Source: Pseudomonadota bacterium
Lineage (GTDB): Bacteria > Pseudomonadota > Alphaproteobacteria > Rhodobacterales > Rhodobacteraceae
Assembly (NCBI GenBank): GCA_029567145.1
Contig: JAKQLM010000492.1
Span: 1 to 35,069, forward strand
Direction of reading: 5' to 3'
Length of the DNA: 35,069 bases
Positions 14,419 through 35,069 of this stretch are shown here, piece by piece; position 1 is the first letter of the stretch; each line of letters begins with the position of its first letter. The position numbers and the translations under genes were made by a program. The notes under the pieces were generated by a model. It saw nothing but the letters and a program-made list of their open reading frames with translations, had not been told where the DNA came from and ran no database searches.

Positions 14419-14482
14419 AGCGGAACAGCACCCGTGGGCGCAACGCGCTGACGGATGGCGATCCCGGGCAATGCCCTAGGGA

Positions 14483-21323: not shown

Positions 21324-21331
21324 AGTTTCTG

Positions 21332-21520
21332 TCCCGTCGCATGGCCGGTCTCCTGACTCGCGGGTCAAAGCCTGCTTTCCGCCTTCCCAGTCCCGGGGGA
21401 CCAGTGGCCGATGGAAAGCCGCTCGCCGCATACAGTCGCGGGGGCGGTTGGGGTTTTGACGCCGATCAACGGTCCGCCAGTCCCCATTCCCGTTTCAGTC
21501 CGAACGCTTTGCGCCCATTG
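21332..21520 (-). promoter_or_regulatory. Cobalamin riboswitch 1 (upstream of cbtBA-cobF)
   Basis: On the minus strand the segment has the known B12-element blocks in order: ACTGAAACGGGAATG, then CCGCCCCCGCGACTGTA, then CCACTG and ACTGGGAAGGCGG, and finally the B12 box GAGTCAGGAGACCGGCC (about 21343-21359). It fills most of the 310-base gap between the DUF1636 gene and cbtB. No intrinsic terminator follows, so control is probably translational, lowering cobalt uptake when B12 is plentiful. Ends are approximate. Confidence 0.93.
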
Positions 21521-21602
21521 GACGCCATGCCCCACCAGTTGCCACCAGGCAAGGCGGCGGGTCAAGGCGCATTTGCGGCTTTCCGGGGCGGTTTGCGACG
21601 CA

Positions 21603-22679: not shown

Positions 22680-22689
22680 CGGTTCATTT

Positions 22690-22880
22690 CGGTTCTGCAA
22701 GGCCGGTCTCCTGGCTGGCGGATCGTGGAGGGTCTTCGCCTTCCCATCCGGACGGACAGTGGCTGTTGAAGACCCGCTCACCGCTGACAGTCGCGGGGGC
22801 GGCTGAGGACGCGGGCCCCTGTTCAGGGTGGCCCGCTCCTCATTCCCGTTTCAGTCCCGACGCTTTGCGCCTGATGGGAC
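22690..22880 (-). promoter_or_regulatory. Cobalamin riboswitch 2 (upstream of the CbiM-like gene)
   Basis: The minus strand shows GCGCAAAGCGTCGGGACTGA, then ACGGGAATG, CCGCCCCCGCGACTGT, CCACTG, GATGGGAAGGCG and the B12 box CCAGCCAGGAGACCGGCC (about 22702-22719), the same order as in riboswitch 1. It occupies most of the 293-base gap between cobA and the CbiM-like gene. No terminator-like hairpin with a T-run follows, so translational control is likely. Ends are approximate. Confidence 0.93.
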
Positions 22881-22944
22881 ACCTTGCCCGCCGTGTGTGC
22901 GCCTGGACGAAACGGGGGTCAAGGACGAAGGCGACCTCGCCGCG

Positions 22945-23773: not shown

Positions 23774-25105
23774 TCATGGGCCTGCAATCAGGTGAAAGAA
23801 CGTGCCGGTCGATAGCCCGCCGTCGGACTGAAGTCGATAGGAGCCGGTTTCGGGAACGGTCGCCCCGGTGGCATCGGTCACGGCGGCCAGCGGCGCATCT
23901 GGTTGCGCCAGAATGCTGGAATAGTGGAATTCGTGGCCCCGAAGCCGGGTCATTGCGGCGTGTCCAGGGATGGACTGTGCAAGTGTCGCCTGCCGGTAGC
24001 CCAGGTGCATCTTGCGGTCGGCATAGCTGGTCACCAGACCCAGAAGCCCGGCCATCGGATACCGGGTGCCGTCCTTGCCGATGATCGCCTGCCCCATGGC
24101 CATGTAGCCGCCACACTCGCCATGCACCGGCTTTTGTGCGGCAAAGGCGGCCAGGCCGCTGTGGAAATGACTGGCAGCGGCCAGAGTCGCGCCGTGCAGT
24201 TCGGGGTAGCCGCCGGGCATCCAGCAGACATCTGCGCTGGGGTCGGGGGCCTGATCGGCCAGGGGCGAGAACGGCAGCACTTCGGCCCCCGCCGCCCGCC
24301 ACCCCTGCAAGAGATGCGGGTAGACAAAGCTGAAGGCGGCATCGCGGGCCAAGGCGATGCGCTGGCCCGGAGGGGTGATCCGTGCGGCGGCAGCGGGTAG
24401 CGCACGGGTCGCAGCCGCCGCGATCAGCGCGTCAAGATCGACGCCTGTGCGCATCAGGTCCGCCGCCTCGGCGATCAGGGCCTGCAGGGCGGGCTGCTCT
24501 TCGGCCTGCACAAGGCCCAGGTGACGTTCGGGCATGGTGATGGCGGCGCGCTTGGGCAGGACGCCCAGAACGGGGAGACCGCCCTCCTGCATCCCGGCGC
24601 GCACCAGCGCCTCGTGCCGGGGGCTGGCGATGCGGTTCAGGATCACTCCGGCGACCTGCACGCCGGGACGGAACCGCGCCAGCCCCAGCGCCACCGCCGC
24701 CGCCGTCTGCGCCTGGCCGCTGGCGTCGATCACCAGGACCACCGGCCAGCCCATCCGCAGCGACAGATCGGCGCTGGCACCGTTGCCGCAGGCCCCGGGT
24801 GCCGCCACCCCATCGAACAGACCCATCGAGCCTTCGGCCAGGATCAGGTCCGCCCCGGTCGCCTTGGCCAGTATCCCGTCCAGCATCGCCCCGGGCATCG
24901 CCCAGGTGTCAAGGTTGAAGCTGTCGCGCCCCGAGGCCGCTCGATGAAAGGCCGGGTCGATGTAATCCGGCCCGTTCTTGAACGGCTGCACCACCAGCCC
25001 CCGCGCCCGCAGCCCGGCCAGCAACCCCAGCATGACCGTGGTCTTGCCGGTGCCCGACGCCGGGGCCGAGATGATCAGGCCCGGTGGCAGCGATCCGGGG
25101 GTCAT
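23774..25105 (-). CDS. cobB: Hydrogenobyrinate a,c-diamide synthase CobB
   Basis: A 443-residue ATP- and glutamine-dependent amidotransferase that amidates the a and c side chains. The N-terminal half is a dethiobiotin-synthetase-like ATPase ([17 protein letters not shown]-loop, ~13-29; [12 protein letters not shown]). The C-terminal half is a class I glutamine amidotransferase-like domain with [10 protein letters not shown] and the nucleophile cysteine in [11 protein letters not shown]. In the aerobic pathway it acts on hydrogenobyrinic acid before cobalt insertion by CobNST. Its ATG overlaps the cobM stop by four bases. RGHEFHYS near the end is the expected triad-histidine segment. Confidence 0.95.
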
Positions 25106-25887
25106 CCGCCCGTACCGGGAAAGCGCGGGTGCGTGCCGACCGGGCGATAGCGGCGATCATAGTCGCCCGCATAAAGCCGGCTCTCGTCGAACCCTTCCTG
25201 CGCCAGCGCCGGGCCGACCAGAATCAGCGCGGTCCGCTCCACCTCGGGCGGCACGGCAGCGGCCAGAGTGGCCAGCGTCGCCCGGATCAGCCGCTGGTCC
25301 GGCCAGCTTGCGCGCCAGACGACGGCCACCGGGCAATCCGGGCCATATTGCGGGATCAGCTCGGCGGTCAGCTTGTCGATCAGATGGATCGACAGATGCA
25401 AGGCCAAGGTCGCGCCGGTGACGGCAAAGGCGGTCAGGGTCTCGCGGTCAGGCATCTGGGTGGCGCGGCCCTCGACCCGTGTCAGCACGACCGATTGCGC
25501 AAGACCCGGCAGAGTCAGCTCGACCCCCAGCGCCGCTGCCGCCGCCGCAAAGGACGGGACACCTGGCGTCACGTCATAGGGAATGCCCAGGTCGCGCAAC
25601 CGGCGCAACTGCTCGCCCATCGCCGACCAGACCGACAGATCGCCGGAATGCAGCCGCGCCACGTCCTGCCCGGCGGCATGGGCAGCGGCAATCTCGGCCA
25701 TGATCTCGTCCAGCGACAGGGGCGCGGTGTTGACGATCCGGCAGCCCGGCGGGCAATGCGACAGCACGCCCTCGGGCACCAGAGAGCCGGCATAAAGGCA
25801 GACCGGGGCGGCCGCGATCAGGTCCCTTCCCCGCAGCGTCAGAAGGTCCGGAGCGCCCGGCCCGGCGCCGATGAAATGAACGGTCAT
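25102..25887 (-). CDS. cobM: Precorrin-4 C11-methyltransferase CobM
   Basis: A 261-residue tetrapyrrole methylase. [18 protein letters not shown] is the SAM-binding opening; [30 protein letters not shown] and [19 protein letters not shown] match CobM/Cbi[13 protein letters not shown] segment is followed by the C-terminal ALILVGPAL strand. An AGGTGG site lies before the ATG at 25887. The ~150-base gap to cobE holds a copy of the 80-bp repeat. It overlaps cobB by four bases. Confidence 0.95.
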
Positions 25888-25929
25888 GCCCCACCTTCGC
25901 AGGGAAAAACCCCTGCCCTTTCACATTGG

Positions 25930-26009
25930 TCCAAATATCCCCGCCGTAGGCAATCGCCCGAGCCGGTTGCGCGCCCTTCGCGCGCAGAGGCGAGACAAAA
26001 GGCTTGCGC
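25930..26009 (-). repeat. 80-bp dispersed repeat, copy A (between cobE and cobM)
   Basis: On the minus strand it starts GCGCAAGCCTTTTGTCTCGC, contains the stem GCGCGC-GAAGG-GCGCGC, then AACCGGCTCGGG, and ends CGGCGGGGATATTTGGA. It is ~85% identical to the plus-strand copy at 31659-31736; the closing pair of the stem is C-G here and T-A there. It lies 42 bases upstream of cobM, in the direction of transcription. Confidence 0.85.
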
Positions 26010-26038
26010 CGCAAGGCGCTCATTCTGACAGCCGCCCA

Positions 26039-26398
26039 TCACCCCGCGCCCTCTGCTATGGCCGCCGTCGCCGTCCCGTCCGCCGACACGGCCCTAGGTC
26101 CGCGCAGCCTGGCCCCCGGCCCCGCTGCGACCAGGGCCACGGCCTCGGACACCGAGCTTGTGCCGAACAGCGCCTCTACCCGGGCTGACCGGGTCGGGGT
26201 CGCAATGTCGCGCAGCAGCGCCGGGTCCAGCGCAAGGACCGGCAGACCAAGCGCGCGGCCCAACGGCTCCAGCCCCGCTGCCTTTGCCGCCAGTGTCGCC
26301 AGATGCGTCACGCCCTTTGCCCCGCCTGCCCGCGCCAGCGCGTCCTGCAAGGCGGCCAGGGTCACCCCTGACCGAAAGCCAAAGCCCGCGACGATCAT
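26039..26398 (-). CDS. cobE: Cobalamin biosynthesis protein CobE
   Basis: A 119-residue protein corresponding to CobE, the stand-alone version of the CbiG C-terminal domain. MIVAGFGFRSGVTLAALQDAL is the family start, LATLAAKAAGLEPLGRALGLPVLAL the core, and SVSEAVALVAAGPGARL the late helix. Its exact role is not settled; it is associated with the aerobic pathway between precorrin steps. The ATG at 26398 overlaps the cobL stop by four bases; the longer track ORF is in cobL. Confidence 0.9.
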   Translation of the reverse strand: MIVAGFGFRSGVTLAALQDALARAGGAKGVTHLATLAAKAAGLEPLGRALGLPVLALDPALLRDIATPTRSARVEALFGTSSVSEAVALVAAGPGARLRGPRAVSADGTATAAIAEGAG

Positions 26399-27579
26399 CG
26401 GGTGACGCTCCATTGCAGGATCGGCAGGCTGGCCTTCCAGCCGCGTTTCCGGCCGATGGCCAGGGGTTCCGCAAGGTCGATCTTCAGAAGGCTGCCGCCA
26501 TGGCGCGCGGACCAGTCCAGAACCAGCGCCTCGGTTTCCAACGTCACCGCGTTCATCACCAGGCGGGTGCCGGGCGGGATCAGGTCCCACAGCGCGTGCA
26601 ACAGGGCGTCCGACGCCCCACCGCCGATAAAGACGGCGTCGGGCGCGGGCAGGCCCTTTAATCCGGCAGGCGCGCGGGTTTCGGTCAGGCGGTGGCGGTG
26701 GCTCAGGCCGAAGGCGTCCACATTGCCCCGGGCGCGGCCGGCGCGGGTCGGGTCGGCTTCCAGCGCCTCGACCCTGGCCCCACCGGCCAGCAGCCATTCG
26801 ATCCCGACCGACCCCGAGCCTGCGCCGATGTCCCAAAGAAGTTCCCCGGGACGCGGCGCAAGCGCGGACAGCGTCAGCGCGCGGACCGGGCGTTTGGTGA
26901 TCTGGCCGTCGTGCTGGAAGAGGTCGTCCGGCAGGCCCGAGGCACCCGGCAGCCCGGGATCGGTGGCCAGGATCGCAGCAGAAACGGGGGCCGCCGAGAC
27001 CGGGGTCCAGTTAGGGTCGGAGGGCACGCCCTGCGTGATCCGCTCCTGCGGGCCGCCGAGGCGTTCCAGGATTGTCAGCCGGGCGTTCGGGTGGCCGTTT
27101 GCCGCCAGCCACGCCGCCAGTTCGGCAACCGCCGCCCCGTCGCGCAGGGTGCAGATCACGCGGACTCCCCGCCCCAGCACCGGACGCAGCCGGGCAAAGG
27201 GCGCGGCGTGCAGGCCAAGGGTCAGCACCTCCTCCAACCGCCAGCCCAGCCGGTTCGCGGCCAGTTGGAAAGTGGAGGGCGCGGGGTGCGAGGTCCATTC
27301 CCCGGGCTGGAGGTGGGCCATCAGGCTGCCACCCGCGCCGAACCAGAACGGGTCGCCCGAGGCGAGGACCACGGTGGGTTGGCCCCGGTGGGCAAGAACG
27401 GGGGTGGGATCGAAGGGCACTGGCCAAGGCTGGCCCTTTGCCCCGACATCTGCAAGGGCAAGGTGGCGCGGGCCACCGAAGACGACTTCGGCGCCGTCCA
27501 GCGCGTCACGGCTTGCGGGCGACAGGCCTGCCAGTCCATCTTCGCCCAGCCCGATCAGGGTCAGCCAGGGATTATCCAT
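26395..27579 (-). CDS. cobL: Precorrin-6Y C5,15-methyltransferase (decarboxylating) CobL
   Basis: A 394-residue fused enzyme. The N-terminal half (~1-205) is a CbiE-like tetrapyrrole methylase (WLTLIGLGEDGLAGL; VVLASGDPFWFGAGG). The C-terminal half (~210-394) is a CbiT-like methyltransferase with the SAM motif LLWDIGAGSGSVGIEWL and AVFIGGG. It methylates C5 and C15 and removes the acetate carboxyl, giving precorrin-8x. The start at 27579 matches the family opening; ATG codons at 27588 and further upstream would extend it. The start codon is shared in a CATG with the divergent cobK start. Confidence 0.95.
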   Translation of the reverse strand: MDNPWLTLIGLGEDGLAGLSPASRDALDGAEVVFGGPRHLALADVGAKGQPWPVPFDPTPVLAHRGQPTVVLASGDPFWFGAGGSLMAHLQPGEWTSHPAPSTFQLAANRLGWRLEEVLTLGLHAAPFARLRPVLGRGVRVICTLRDGAAVAELAAWLAANGHPNARLTILERLGGPQERITQGVPSDPNWTPVSAAPVSAAILATDPGLPGASGLPDDLFQHDGQITKRPVRALTLSALAPRPGELLWDIGAGSGSVGIEWLLAGGARVEALEADPTRAGRARGNVDAFGLSHRHRLTETRAPAGLKGLPAPDAVFIGGGASDALLHALWDLIPPGTRLVMNAVTLETEALVLDWSARHGGSLLKIDLAEPLAIGRKRGWKASLPILQWSVTR

Positions 27580-29857: not shown

Positions 29858-30487
29858 TCATTCCTTCCGCGAGGCAAGGGCGTTGACCGCCGCCACGGTG
29901 ATGGCGCTGCCGCCGAGGCGGCCCTTGACGATGACGGATGGGGCGGGCGGGGCGTCCATCAGCGCGTCCTTGGATTCGGCGGCACCGACGAAGCCCACCG
30001 GGCAGCCGATAATCGCGGCGGGCCGGGGACAGGCGGGGTCTTCGAGCATGTTCAGGAGGTGGAAGAGGGCGGTGGGCGCGTTGCCGATGGCGACGATCGC
30101 GCCTTGGAGGTGCGGACGCCAGAGTTCCACGGCGGCGGCGGAGCGCGTGTTCTGCATCCGGGCAGCAAGGGCGGGGACTTCCGGATGTTGGAGCGTGCAG
30201 ATGATCTGATTGTTCGCGGGCAGGCGCTTTTTCGTGATCCCCTCGCTGACCATGCGGACATCGCAAAGGATGGGCGCACCCGCCTCCAATGCTGCCCGGG
30301 CGGCGATGGCCATGCCGGGGGAGAACCGGATGTGCGGCGCGAGGTCGACCATCCCGGCGGCGTGGATCATGCGGACGGCGACGATCTCTTCTTCAGGCGT
30401 GAAGCGGGCGAGGTCGGCCTCGGCCCGGATCATGGCGAAGGATGCCAGGTAGATCGCGGCGCCGTCGGTTTCATAGGTATGGGGCAT
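29858..30487 (-). CDS. cobH: Precorrin-8X methylmutase CobH
   Basis: A 209-residue enzyme that moves the methyl group from C11 to C12, giving hydrogenobyrinic acid. The active-site histidine is at residue 42 in RMIHAAGMVDLA; DVRMVSEGITKKRLP and AIIGCPVGFVGAAESKDAL are hallmark segments. Length is normal. Its start lies 17 bases inside the end of cobG, indicating coupling. Confidence 0.96.
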   Translation of the reverse strand: MPHTYETDGAAIYLASFAMIRAEADLARFTPEEEIVAVRMIHAAGMVDLAPHIRFSPGMAIAARAALEAGAPILCDVRMVSEGITKKRLPANNQIICTLQHPEVPALAARMQNTRSAAAVELWRPHLQGAIVAIGNAPTALFHLLNMLEDPACPRPAAIIGCPVGFVGAAESKDALMDAPPAPSVIVKGRLGGSAITVAAVNALASRKE

Positions 30488-31613
30488 GGAGGGCTTTCAG
30501 GTGGTCTTGGATGGCCTGCGGGGTAAGGCCGGTCAGGCTGGGCGTGTCATGGGCGGTGCCGTTGCGGATCAGGTCATAGCCCTGGCCGGTGGCGGTGAGC
30601 GTGGTCTTTGTGGCGCTGGGGTGCGCACAGCCCTTGGCGCAGCCGGAGATGTGGAGCGTCTGGTCTGGCGCGAGGTGCAGAGCGAGATCGCGGGCAAGGT
30701 TGCGCGTGTCGCCAAGGCCCTGCGGGCAGCCGGGCGCACCGGTGCAGGCGGTGATGCGCAGGATCGGGTCGGTCGGATCGGTGATCAGGCCGGGAATCGC
30801 GGGGAGTTCCGTCGCGCCGACGAGGAGCAGCATCCGCCAGGGGGTAGGGCAGAGTTCGTGGCCGAGGGCGGCGAGGGCCTGGAGCGTCTCGGCGCGCATC
30901 TGGCCGAAGGCGAGGGCGACGAGGGCGCCGTCCGGGTGGAGGCAAGGGCTGGGGGTCGCCAGGGGGTCTGCGGGCGCAAGGGTGCAGCCGGGCGGGACGG
31001 TTCCGCGCGCGATGAGGGCGGCCATGCGGCCGCGGCCGTTGGTGATGCCGCCGCTTTGGACGAACCAGTTGGCCATGTCGACGGCGTCTTTCGCGAGGTC
31101 GGTGACGGGCTGGCCGAGGGGGTGGCCGTCGGGGCGCAGGATGAGCCTTCCGTCTGTGGCGCGTTCGACACGGATATCGACGGAAGCGTCGGTGAGGACG
31201 GGGCGGGGGCCGGTGTCGAGGGCGAAGCCGAACTTGCCGGGGAGGTGCGGCATCCGGGTCAGGGCTGCGGTGAGGGTTGTAGCCAGCGCGTTGGTCTCGG
31301 CGTCGCTGAACGGGGTCACGATGAGGTTGCGGAGGGATTCGGTTTCGATGTCGGGGTCGATGAGGCCCTGGGCGCGGAGGTCAGCGATCAGGCGCGGGTG
31401 GCTGGCCTCGGTCACGCCGCGCAGTTGCAGGTTGGCGCGGGCGGAGAGGTCGATGATGCCGTTGCCGTGGCTTTGGGCGGCTTCGGCGATGGCTTGCGCC
31501 TGTTGCGGCGTAAGGCGGCCCAGCGGGGGGCGGATGCGGGTGACGAGGCCGTCGCCGGACTGCATCGGGCGGAGCGCGCCGGGGCACCAGCCTTTGATCT
31601 CCCAGGCGGTCAT
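30471..31613 (-). CDS. cobG: Precorrin-3B synthase CobG
   Basis: A 380-residue monooxygenase of the nitrite/sulfite reductase fold. It uses O2 to hydroxylate C20 and form the gamma-lactone of precorrin-3B. The Fe-S cluster cysteines are visible as C-x5-C (CTGAPGC) and C-x3-C (CAKGC) in the C-terminal half; the N-terminal half has LSARANLQLRGV. It is diagnostic of the oxygen-dependent route. The ATG at 31613 (MTAWEIKGWCPG) matches family starts; the track start at 31664 is intergenic. Leucine codons are often CTC here, unlike the upstream methylases. Confidence 0.93.
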   Translation of the reverse strand: MTAWEIKGWCPGALRPMQSGDGLVTRIRPPLGRLTPQQAQAIAEAAQSHGNGIIDLSARANLQLRGVTEASHPRLIADLRAQGLIDPDIETESLRNLIVTPFSDAETNALATTLTAALTRMPHLPGKFGFALDTGPRPVLTDASVDIRVERATDGRLILRPDGHPLGQPVTDLAKDAVDMANWFVQSGGITNGRGRMAALIARGTVPPGCTLAPADPLATPSPCLHPDGALVALAFGQMRAETLQALAALGHELCPTPWRMLLLVGATELPAIPGLITDPTDPILRITACTGAPGCPQGLGDTRNLARDLALHLAPDQTLHISGCAKGCAHPSATKTTLTATGQGYDLIRNGTAHDTPSLTGLTPQAIQDHLKALHAPYL

Positions 31614-31658
31614 GCGGGGTGACCTTGGGTTGGGGCGGTTTCCGAATTGAGCGCTGAC

Positions 31659-31736
31659 GCGCAAGTCTTTTGTCTCGCCTTATGCGCGTGAAGAACGCGC
31701 AACGGCTCGGGTTTGCCTCCGGCGGGGATATTTGGA
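31659..31736 (+). repeat. 80-bp dispersed repeat, copy B (between cobN and cobG)
   Basis: GCGCAAGTCTTTTGTCTCGC, then the stem GCGCGT-GAAGA-ACGCGC, AACGGCTCGGG, TTGCCTCCGGCGGGGATATTTGGA. It is the same element as copy A at 25930-26009 but runs against the cob genes here. It occupies most of the 142-base cobN-cobG spacer; I see no other feature in that spacer. Confidence 0.85.
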
Positions 31737-31755
31737 GACATGAAATGGCTGCAGG

Positions 31756-34700
31756 TCATGCGGCACCGTCCAGCCGCGCGGCGATGGAGTTGCGGCGGGT
31801 TTGCCAGAGGCCGGCGTCGTGGAGGCGGCGGAAGACGTCTTCCATCGCGGCGAGGGCGGCGGGGTTTTCGCGGTTAAGGAAGTCGCGGACCTCGTCACGG
31901 CCGAGGGTGGCGTCGTGGTAGAGGTCGAAAAGGTGCGGGGGCACGACCTGGGCCAGGTGGGCGAAGGCGGCCATGTGGTCGAGGGTAGCGGCGATTTCGG
32001 CGGCACCCCGGTAGCCGTGGTTCATCATGCCTTCCGCCCATGCCGGGTTGGCGGCGCGGGCGCGGGTGACGCGGGCGATTTCCTCGGTCAGGGTTCTTGC
32101 GTGCGGGGTGTCGGGGCGGGTGGCGTCGAGGTGGTAGAGGGTGGGTTTGACCCCCCCGAGTTTGGCGACGGCGGCGGCGAAGCCTGCCTCGTGCGCGGCG
32201 TAGTCGGCGGCGATCAGGACGTCGGTTTCGGGGAGATCCTGGGCGTGGACGAAGCTGTCGGAAGCGAGGATGCGCTGCTCCAGGGCTTCGCGGGCTTCGG
32301 TGGACTGGCCGTCGGGGCCGATGGCCCAGCTGGAAGCGCTGAGCCAGGCTTCGCCGGCGGCGGCGCGGGCTTCGTCCGTGAAGGTGTCGGCGGCGGTTCC
32401 CATCCCCAGGCCGTAGAGGCCGGGTTTGGGGCCGAAGACGCGGGCTTCGCGGGTGGTGTAGGGGTTGTCTTCGGCGGTTTCTTCACGGGTCGAAAGGGCC
32501 TCGGCCCCGGCTTCGAAGAGCTGGGCGAGGGTCGGGAAGACGTCGCGGAAGAGGCCGGAGACGCGGAGGGTGACGTCTATGCGCGGGCGTCCGAGGATCG
32601 CGAGGGGCAGGATTTCGAAGCCGGAGACCCTGGCGGAACCGTCGTCCCATTTGGGGGCAAGGCCAGCGAGGTGGAGGGCCATGGCGAACTCTTCCCCCGC
32701 CGTGCGCATGGTGGCGCTGCCCCACAGGTCGACGACAAGGCCGCGCGGGTAGTCGCCGTGGTCCTGCAGGTGACGGCGGATCAGTTCCTCGGCCAGTTTC
32801 ACGCCCTGGGCGTGGGCGTTGCGCGAGGGGACGGCGCGGGGGTCGACGGAGAAGAGGTTTCTTCCGGTGGGGAGGACGTCGGAGCGGCCCCGGTTGGGGG
32901 AGCCCGCGGGACCGGGGGGCACGCGGTGACCGTTGAGGGCGGTGAGGAGGCCTTGGGTTTCGCCCTCGCCCTGGCCGAAGATGTGCAGGCCGACTCCGTA
33001 CTGGCTTTCCTTCAGGTCGCAGACGAAGCGGTCGATCCGGGTGATCGCTTCGGCGGGGGTGGCGTTTGGGGCGAGGCCGAGGTCTTCCGCCACGCCGGAG
33101 GCTGACGCTTCGTCACGGATGCTGGAGATCAGGCGGGTGCGGCGGGCGGGGTCTAACCCGTCGGCGGTGGAGTATTCGTCGAGCAGGCGTTCAAGGCGTT
33201 GGAGTTCGGGGGGGACGGTGCTTTGCGCCAGGGGGGGCGGCAGGTGGCCGAGGGTGACGGCCCCGATGCGGCGTTTGGCCTGGGCAGCCTCGCCGGGGTC
33301 GTTGACGATGAAGGGGTAGATGACCGGGGTGGGGCCGATGAGGGCCTCGGGCCAGCAGGTGTCGGAGAGGGCGACGGATTTGCCGGGAAGCCATTCGAGC
33401 GTGCCGTGGGCACCCATGTGGATCAGGGCGTGGAGGGATTGTGCGCGGAGCCAGAGGTAGAAGGCGACATAGGCGTGGCGCGGGGTGCGGGAGAGGTCGT
33501 GGTAGCTGTCGTCGCGGGTCTGGACGTCGCCGCGTTCGGGTTGCAGGGCGATGAGGGTTGCGCCCCGGCGGGTGGCGGGGAAGTGGAACTGGCCGTCCCT
33601 GACCGAGGGGTCGGTAGCGGGGTCGCCCCAGGCTTCGGTGAGGGTCTGACGGAGGGGGTCGGGGATGGCTTCGAGGGCTGTTTCGTAGGCGGAGAGGGGC
33701 CAGGAGAGGGTTTCGGTCAGCGCCTGCGGCAGGGGATCGCCCTGGCTGATGGAATAGCCTTCGGCGGTGAGGACATCGAGGAGACGGTCGATCGACGCCA
33801 GCGCGTCGAGGCCGACGGCATGGGCCATCTGGTGTGCGCGGCCGGGATAGGTGGAGAGGATGATCGCCAACTGCCGGTCTTGCGCGGGAGTGGCGGCGAG
33901 GTGGTGCCAGTGGGTGATGCGGTCCACCACGGCCTGAATGCGGGTGGCGTCAGCGCGGTGGGCGAAGCGGGAGAATTGCAGATCCGGGTGGCGCTTGCCG
34001 GGGGACTTGTGGCTGATCAGGCCGGCAAAGAGGCGGCCGTCGACCTCGGGCAGCACCACGTGCATCGCAAGGTCGGCGGGCGACAGGCCCCGGTCGGACG
34101 CGGCCCAGTCGCGGCGGCGGGCGGTGGAGAGGGCGACCTGGAAGACGGGGCAAAGTGCTGCGTCAAAGGGGGTCTGGCCGGTGTCGGATTTGGCAGAGAA
34201 GGCGGTGGCGTTGATCACGGCCACGGGCGGGTTTGCGGTCAGGTGGGGTGAGAGCCAGTCAGCGACGCCGGGGGCCTTGAGGCTGGGGGCGAAGGCGCCA
34301 TAGGCCGCGAAGCCTGCGGCGCGGAGGGCGTGGATCAGGGCGTCCACCGGGGCGGTGTCGCCGGAGGTGAGGTAGCTGCGGTAGAAGGTGACGAGGACGG
34401 GGCCTTTGGGTTCGGGCGTCTTGGAGCGAGTGCTGGTGGTGGAGAGATCGGGCGCGTGATGCGAGGCCGTTGGTGCGATGGCCGATGCCGGCTGCCCCCC
34501 CTCCACAGCCCTCTCCGACGTGGGGGGGAGGGAGGCGTTGGGAGCGGCGTCGGGATGGTTCTGCGGCGTCGGATGGGTGAAGCCGTGGATGACCTGGTGC
34601 GGCCCCTCCCCCTCTGTGGGGAGGGGATGGCGGGCTTGTGGCGCGGGAATCACCCCCCGGTCCGGGTCGTAGAACCCCATCTGCGGCACGGTCTTGTCGC

Positions 34701-35069
34701 CGATCACCGGGGCGACGTAGATGCCTGCGGCCAGCGCCAGTTGCGCCAGCGCGGCATGGGCGGCGACGGCTCCGCCTTCGTCGCACAGCGCCTGCAGACG
34801 GCGGAGGGTGGAGACGGGGAGGGTGGAAAGCTCATCCAGCCGCGGGTCGGGGCGGCCGTCGGCTGGAAGGACGGCAAGCGCGATGCCCTGGCGGCGGGCA
34901 AGGTCCTGCAGCGTGGCGAGGCCGTAGAGCCAGTAGGCCTCGCCCCCGATCAGGCGGACAAGGATGGCCTTCGCGGCGAAAAGGGTTTTCTCGACGTAGG
35001 TGTCGACCGAGACCGGGTGTTTCAGCGCAACGATGTTGGCCAGCCGCAGGGTAGGGTGGGTGATATCAC
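31756..35069 (-). CDS. cobN: Cobaltochelatase large subunit CobN (5' end beyond window)
   Basis: The frame is open from the stop at 31756 to the window edge, giving 1103 residues of the CobN subunit, which with CobS and CobT inserts cobalt into hydrogenobyrinic acid a,c-diamide at the cost of ATP. The track begins at a GTG at 34707, but translation of the upstream part gives clear CobN sequence (ALKHPVSVDTYVEKTLF; GGEAYWLYGL), so roughly 100-200 N-terminal residues are missing. Signature segments include MGAHGTLEWLPGKSVALS, NDPGEAAQAKRRIGAVTLGHLPPP, VDLWGSATMRTAGEEFAMAL and RIDVTLRVSGLFRDVFP. A ~75-residue low-complexity insertion lies between the GFYDPDRGVI and VTFYRSYL segments (see repeat entry). 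Confidence 0.95.
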   Translation of the reverse strand, partial: DITHPTLRLANIVALKHPVSVDTYVEKTLFAAKAILVRLIGGEAYWLYGLATLQDLARRQGIALAVLPADGRPDPRLDELSTLPVSTLRRLQALCDEGGAVAAHAALAQLALAAGIYVAPVIGDKTVPQMGFYDPDRGVIPAPQARHPLPTEGEGPHQVIHGFTHPTPQNHPDAAPNASLPPTSERAVEGGQPASAIAPTASHHAPDLSTTSTRSKTPEPKGPVLVTFYRSYLTSGDTAPVDALIHALRAAGFAAYGAFAPSLKAPGVADWLSPHLTANPPVAVINATAFSAKSDTGQTPFDAALCPVFQVALSTARRRDWAASDRGLSPADLAMHVVLPEVDGRLFAGLISHKSPGKRHPDLQFSRFAHRADATRIQAVVDRITHWHHLAATPAQDRQLAIILSTYPGRAHQMAHAVGLDALASIDRLLDVLTAEGYSISQGDPLPQALTETLSWPLSAYETALEAIPDPLRQTLTEAWGDPATDPSVRDGQFHFPATRRGATLIALQPERGDVQTRDDSYHDLSRTPRHAYVAFYLWLRAQSLHALIHMGAHGTLEWLPGKSVALSDTCWPEALIGPTPVIYPFIVNDPGEAAQAKRRIGAVTLGHLPPPLAQSTVPPELQRLERLLDEYSTADGLDPARRTRLISSIRDEASASGVAEDLGLAPNATPAEAITRIDRFVCDLKESQYGVGLHIFGQGEGETQGLLTALNGHRVPPGPAGSPNRGRSDVLPTGRNLFSVDPRAVPSRNAHAQGVKLAEELIRRHLQDHGDYPRGLVVDLWGSATMRTAGEEFAMALHLAGLAPKWDDGSARVSGFEILPLAILGRPRIDVTLRVSGLFRDVFPTLAQLFEAGAEALSTREETAEDNPYTTREARVFGPKPGLYGLGMGTAADTFTDEARAAAGEAWLSASSWAIGPDGQSTEAREALEQRILASDSFVHAQDLPETDVLIAADYAAHEAGFAAAVAKLGGVKPTLYHLDATRPDTPHARTLTEEIARVTRARAANPAWAEGMMNHGYRGAAEIAATLDHMAAFAHLAQVVPPHLFDLYHDATLGRDEVRDFLNRENPAALAAMEDVFRRLHDAGLWQTRRNSIAARLDGAA
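34430..34655 (-). repeat. Palindrome-rich in-frame insertion in cobN
   Basis: Between two conserved CobN blocks the DNA holds CCCCTCCCC-CTCTGT-GGGGAGGGG (34603-34626, perfect 9-base arms) and an imperfect C/G-rich pair around 34495-34533 (CCCCCCCTCCAC ... GTGGGGGGGAGGG). The encoded protein is proline-, alanine- and threonine-rich (HPLPTEGEGPHQ; ASLPPTSERAVEGGQP). These translations resemble those of intergenic palindromic repeats in other proteobacteria. The frame stays open, so CobN is probably still made with an extra loop. Confidence 0.65.

Follow-up and report, generated by a model that had tools for sequence, protein, structure and literature searches.

Two sites in a cob cluster as probable copies of a dispersed intergenic hairpin repeat in a Rhodobacteraceae genus

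RAYT transposases account for the best-studied REP repeats, and BOX and BIME mosaic repeats combine exchangeable modules with hairpins. REP and REPIN sequences served by a RAYT (TnpA-REP) are dispersed intergenic palindromes that form inverted doublets and undergo compensatory hairpin changes (PMC3116915; PMC3686654). CGTC-tagged REPs are alphaproteobacterial, form hairpins with 4-5 nt loops and have no known dedicated transposase; they carry an unpaired CGTC (TGTC/CCTC) tag, an 8-9 bp stem with A-T as its first two pairs, and a CCA tail (PMC3733652). Dozens of rhizobial intergenic repeats of unknown function, the RIMEs among them, conserve both primary sequence and secondary structure (PMC2573895). 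The element described here appears to work like REP/REPIN and RIME-type repeats, yet it lacks the tag and enzyme of RAYT-linked REPs and departs from CGTC-REPs in both stem and tail.

The window analysed is a 35,069-nt stretch of Rhodobacteraceae DNA. A first-pass annotation had paired positions 25930-26009 (copy A) with 31659-31736 (copy B) at about 85% identity with two small gaps. When the reverse complement of the former was globally aligned to the latter, 70 of 81 columns were identical (86%), in line with that identity, but the 4 gap characters fell into three short gaps. The two blocks described as invariant, TTTTGTCTCGCCT and GGCGGGGATATTTGGA, were the same in A and B, and neither recurred elsewhere in the window with up to one mismatch allowed. 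The central stem reads GCGCGC-GAAGG-GCGCGC in one copy and GCGCGT-GAAGA-ACGCGC in the other, a compensated C-G to T-A change exactly as annotated. The pair had been correctly recognised, but its limits excluded the 5' hairpin as well as the 3' end; the full extents are about 25917-26042 (minus strand) for copy A and about 31628-31748 (plus strand) for copy B. Searched within the window's genome, copy B retrieved copy A at E = 1.8e-19, and the 16-mer GGCGGGGATATTTGGA occurred 37 times at ≤2 mismatches and 0 times when read backwards. The likeness of A and B is therefore not due to chance.

By a custom codon-usage gene caller rather than curated annotation, copy A is flanked by cobE (about 26039-26404) and cobM (25102-25887) and runs sense to both, just upstream of cobM as first described. 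Copy B lies between cobN (31756-35067) and cobG (30471-31613), antisense to both. Two cobalamin riboswitches near cob genes were also seen in the window at 21326-21544 and 22684-22901 (both minus strand; RF00174, 114.7 and 106 bits), together with an Rfam match to the ffh sRNA at 14421-14472 (minus strand; RF01793, 66.6 bits).

An alignment of 15 genome copies defined a unit of ~130 nt comprising hairpin 1, a linker, hairpin 2 and a tail. The head of ~90 nt, for which a covariance model (R1) was built, consists of the two hairpins around TTTTGTCTCG, and the tail contains GCCTCCGGCGGGGATATTTG. The features of the two window copies are as follows.

25951-26042, minus strand: copy A head (hairpin 1, TTTTGTCTCG linker, hairpin 2); R1, 85.4 bits, E 1.7e-21 in the genome
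26006-26019, minus strand: copy A hairpin 1, GCGCC-TTGC-GGCGC; read from sequence, with helix 1 paired in 93.1% of cells across 80 copies
25988-26000, minus strand: copy A linker TTTTGTCTCGCCT; same in both copies and near-invariant in the family
25962-25991, minus strand: copy A hairpin 2, GCC-TC-TGCGCGC-GAAGG-GCGCGCA-ACC-GGC; covarying helices 2 and 3
25917-25950, minus strand: copy A tail GCCTACGGCGGGGATATTTGGACCAATGTGAAAG; tail core found at 37 genome sites
31628-31717, plus strand: copy B head; R1, 90.2 bits, E 6.9e-23 in the genome
31651-31662, plus strand: copy B hairpin 1, GCGC-TGAC-GCGC; read from sequence
31668-31680, plus strand: copy B linker TTTTGTCTCGCCT; same in both copies
31677-31706, plus strand: copy B hairpin 2, GCC-TTA-TGCGCGT-GAAGA-ACGCGCA-AC-GGC; covarying helices
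31715-31748, plus strand: copy B tail GCCTCCGGCGGGGATATTTGGAGACATGAAATGG; tail core found at 37 genome sites
31608-31617, plus strand: left direct repeat GGTCATGCGG at copy B; holds the cobG start codon on the minus strand
31754-31763, plus strand: right direct repeat GGTCATGCGG at copy B; holds the cobN stop codon on the minus strand; possible target-site duplication

Across the genome copies, the hairpin 1 region reads GGnCGGGGCGGTTTTCAAATTGAGCGC...GCGC and the linker AAGnCTTTTGTCTCG. Hairpin 2 has a loop of mostly GAAGG or GAAGA and is closed by CTCGG; its stem is either a continuous 12 bp or 7 bp plus an internal loop plus 3 bp, or else TCGTCGGGCTTCGCCTCCTCCTCGG stands in its place. The latter substitution was seen in about a dozen copies of the window's own genome (L169-L185, e.g. 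L173:2077-2159), and the module contains a CCTCCTCC run resembling an anti-Shine-Dalgarno sequence. Two tail types were found, GCCTCCGGCGGGGATATTTGGGCCAATGTGAAAG and a GGGGG-loop-CCCCC hairpin followed by AAACCCCCAGAGAGTATTTGCAAAAGAGCAA, with a half-palindrome of the form ...GAGTATTTGG..AAAGAGCAA or ...GGGGATATTTGGGCCAATGTGAAAG. The tail core occurs with or without the head, the first type standing without one at 13 of 30 inspected sites. Complementarity between head and tail was weak by inspection, and as tails of the second type do not complement the head, reading the two as true terminal inverted repeats was rejected. With a unit of ~130 nt, two hairpins and a tail, the element differs from REPs; the 5' GT(A/G)G tetranucleotide (GTAG/GTGG) is also missing, hairpin 2 being flanked by GTCTCG. 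Unlike in CGTC-REPs, the stem opens with G-C pairs, measures 12 bp or 7+3 bp and has no CCA tail, and the TGTC within TTTTGTCTCG does not border the stem.

The tail half-palindrome was additionally observed as GAGTATTTGG..AAGAGCAA / AAGATGAAG, in a tail-spacer-inverted tail arrangement, in several Rhodobacteraceae genera (L210, L206, L213) and at L278, L289 and L176. Given this spread, the tail looks to be a repeat in its own right, older and family-wide. Lone tails also occur in outward-facing inverted pairs, AAATATCCCCGCCGGAGGC-spacer-GCCTCCGGCGGGGATATTT (L028 around 1188; L197).

The first-pass annotation had suggested a covariance-model search, and took a return of two copies only, or stems that do not covary, as evidence against a structured element; many copies were retrieved, with stems that covary far above shuffled controls. 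R1 gave 50 matches in the window's genome at E < 0.1, 48 of these below 0.001, and counted 48 copies in genome G007 and 46 in G016. All 25 genomes of the genus that were searched (the window's own and 24 others) were positive with 13-56 matches each, as against hundreds for REPs. A survey of 150 genomes of the family, drawn across genera with few candidates scored per genome, gave matches in 22 of them, own genome included; most were weak, and those in other genera were few and weak. The matches often kept the order hairpin 1, TTTTGTCTCG, a very different hairpin 2, CTCGG and GCCTCCGGCGGGAGTATTTG. In 16 alphaproteobacterial genomes from other families R1 matched nothing. At the cobM locus, Tabrizicola and Rhodobacter sp. 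metagenome assemblies were the closest named relatives. Plasmids and phages gave no match to the element, and an exact core pattern was absent from the viral contigs searched, so an origin from either was rejected. It scored above the gathering threshold of no Rfam family. A literature search, with most subscription journals outside its range, returned no description of the element; the tail 14-mer appeared in no paper searched, and the linker and tail half-site led to no paper on bacterial repeats.

Covariation was assessed over 80 distinct copies. Both-sided changes occurred at 12 of 17 pairs, and pairing was kept in 91.3% of cells compared to 80.3% after shuffling, in an alignment that leans towards structure since R1 was trained on 14 of the 80 sequences. 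The covariation score of 0.282 (0.105 shuffled) was reached by 0 of 500 shuffles, and sliding the pairing partners abolished it. The closing pair that differs between copies A and B (columns 74/107 of alignment A3) was C-G in 37, T-A in 37 and G-C in 3 of 77 copies, and never unpaired. Stem changes can also be read by eye (TTTGCGT/ACGCAAA, TCTGCGT/ACGCAGA, TGTGCGT/ACGCACA and TGCGCGC/GCGCGCA). At the orthologous cobN-cobG site, hairpin 1 is GCGCTGACGCGC, GCGGCTGCGCCGC or GCGCGTTCCGCGC across genomes and hairpin 2 varies too with pairing kept; either change in place or gene conversion from other copies would account for this variation. Covariation so far beyond shuffled controls indicates that the hairpins are under constraint, and the palindrome is preserved through compensatory change as in REPs. 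It also bears on the idea of a double-stranded site for a chromosome-organising or segregation protein, in which hairpin symmetry would reflect a dimeric protein. Such a site would suit palindromic, dispersed copies that are orientation-neutral relative to genes, but the stem sequence is free to vary while pairing is kept, which a base-specific protein would forbid, and the copies in G007 showed no replication-orientation bias (28 of 48 co-oriented). We regard this explanation as improbable; a KOPS-like role in particular was rejected on the lack of bias in G007.

Like REP/REPIN sequences the element is repetitive (~50 copies) and extragenic, with 195 of 197 distinct copies intergenic and 2 overlapping a called gene. 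After orthologous sites were collapsed, 93 sites remained: 32 antisense tandem, 24 sense tandem, 27 convergent, 7 divergent and 3 unresolved. The convergent to divergent ratio of 27:7 compares with 14:37 for background intergenic gaps of ≥100 nt (p = 3e-6), and the head lies a median of ~10 nt past an upstream stop codon. Sense and antisense tandem sites were balanced (24:32, p = 0.35); an antisense preference seen in top matches of other species (21 of 26) disappeared once orthologous sites were collapsed. Together these results tie the element to gene 3' ends irrespective of the transcribed strand.

This orientation neutrality argues against a strand-specific RNA. The first-pass annotation had proposed an element either transcribed into a structure or recognised as one. 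Constraint on the hairpins was borne out by covariation, but transcription was not by orientation, promoter, loop or folding results: neither window copy has a promoter-like site, and the conserved GAAG loop is frequent whatever the gene context, sense and antisense alike. Raw folding energies favoured the plus strand (167 of 197), but the effect vanished and reversed when each strand was set against its own dinucleotide shuffles (mean z -1.41 on plus and -2.09 on minus), and a strand-specific RNA was rejected on this ground. A structured small RNA or cis-regulatory RNA family transcribed from the plus strand of each copy would account for the covarying stems, the conserved loop and a few G-U pairs on that strand (15 versus 6 A-C, mostly in one subfamily). 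Set against the folding result, the random orientation, the unrelated flanks and the lack of any Rfam match or promoter-like site, it seems very improbable. Recognition as a structure, in DNA or RNA, may hold and is the better half of the earlier claim.

The main rival to a mobile repeat is a bidirectional RNA role at 3' ends, in which hairpins in 3' untranslated regions would end transcription, or shield the messenger from 3' exonucleases, in either orientation. The stop-codon adjacency and strong convergent excess are consistent with this, as are a terminator-like site in copy A, where hairpin 1 is followed by TTTTGTC, and a strong GGGGGCGCTTCGCCCCCC hairpin in some tails. However, stop-codon adjacency is also expected of a tolerated mobile repeat, and tandem pairs show no orientation preference. 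The T-run is on one strand only and copy B has no terminator-like site; moreover, both copies sit inside the cob cluster, at cobN-cobG and cobE-cobM, and a strong terminator there would have polar effects. We consider this role possible but unlikely.

Close pairs of units were predominantly tail-to-tail (7 of 8 in three genomes, the other tandem; p = 4e-4 versus random orientation), resembling the inverted doublets of REPINs (PMC3116915), although most copies of the element are single. In the inspected pairs the two tails make a long inverted repeat, e.g. GAGTATTTGGAAAAGAGCAA-GCGCA-TTTGCTCTTTTTGAAATACTC. The middle hairpin and the tail swap between alternative modules, even at orthologous sites. 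Among the 14 genus genomes having the L113 junction, 2 carry the element, with differing middle and tail modules, and the L111 site is filled in 10 of 11 readable genomes. A second tail, GCCTCCGGCGGGGATATTT..., was observed a few tens of nt beyond the first at the L111 site of three species (L341, L343, L344). Copy B was retained in 11 of 12 genomes; in the remaining one (G003) the element is absent and the genes overlap as ATGA, and orthologues without copy A, in other genera, likewise have an overlapping ATGA junction. Orthologous sites record both long-standing inheritance and the gain or loss of copies. Many of them are ancient and passed down vertically, a pattern that a host function would produce as well, and the genomes compared included no near-identical strain pair differing in a copy.

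An empty orthologous B site (L228) has a single TCATGC, whereas filled B sites have GGTCATGCGG, whole or in part, on both sides, so that it provides the start codon as well as the stop codon. At this one site the GGTCATGCGG pair looks like a target duplication. Flanking direct repeats were clear at copy B and the L111 site, but with one copy per site showed no excess over permuted flanks (6.28 versus 6.10, sd 0.11; 6.43 versus 6.09 for tandem sites only). Because the all-site signal does not rise above permuted flanks, target-site duplication is not claimed as a general rule. MITEs of DDE transposons are marked by terminal inverted repeats and a target-site duplication; on these two counts the element shows weak head-tail complementarity and the GGTCATGCGG pair at copy B.

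We conclude that both sites are probably copies of a REP/mosaic-type repeat of the genus, non-coding and dispersed between genes, likely non-autonomous, mobile and maintained as hairpins; a new family of such repeats is the best reading. One unit comprises hairpin 1, TTTTGTCTCG, hairpin 2 with its GAAG loop, CTCGG and the tail half-palindrome, and units stand singly or pair tail-to-tail, the paired tails building a long palindrome. The hairpins may be exposed as single-stranded DNA or a cruciform, and selection is inferred to act on the hairpin as DNA, not as RNA. A trans-acting enzyme would recognise the hairpins and copy the unit into fresh intergenic sites, where insertions would persist mainly beside stop codons, sparing gene and promoter. 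What the genomes show directly is dispersal, covariation, module swapping, placement between genes at 3' ends, neutral orientation, tail-to-tail pairing and presence or absence at orthologous sites, whereas mobility and the enzyme are inferred. No Y1/RAYT transposase (PF01797; RAYT/IS200-type) was detected in any of 16 genus genomes, with positive controls detected, so no enzyme was identified; in this the element differs from REPs. A more specific proposal is that composite hairpin repeats spread and swap modules genus-wide in Tabrizicola-like bacteria through a non-RAYT recombination or transposition enzyme, inserting preferentially at gene ends and overlapping ATGA junctions and leaving both genes intact through a short duplication. 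We hold this version to be rather unlikely.

With CGTC-REPs the probable repeat shares an alphaproteobacterial host, hairpins with 4-5 nt loops and the lack of a known dedicated transposase. Like RIME and Sm/ABC repeats (cited in PMC2573895) it is intergenic, alphaproteobacterial, present in dozens of copies and conserved in secondary structure, RIME being also a mosaic by name; the host order differs. It thus looks like a Rhodobacteraceae counterpart of the rhizobial intergenic repeats, RIME being compared by description only. The modular hairpin build is shared with BOX and BIME, likewise compared by description only, in unrelated host groups.

Combining REP-like habits and strong covariation without a RAYT-type enzyme, the element offers a clean case for asking how such repeats spread and why their hairpins persist. 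It also cautions that covariation by itself is no proof of a functional RNA, and that orientation relative to genes should be checked. For Rhodobacteraceae genomes, it provides a ready marker family.
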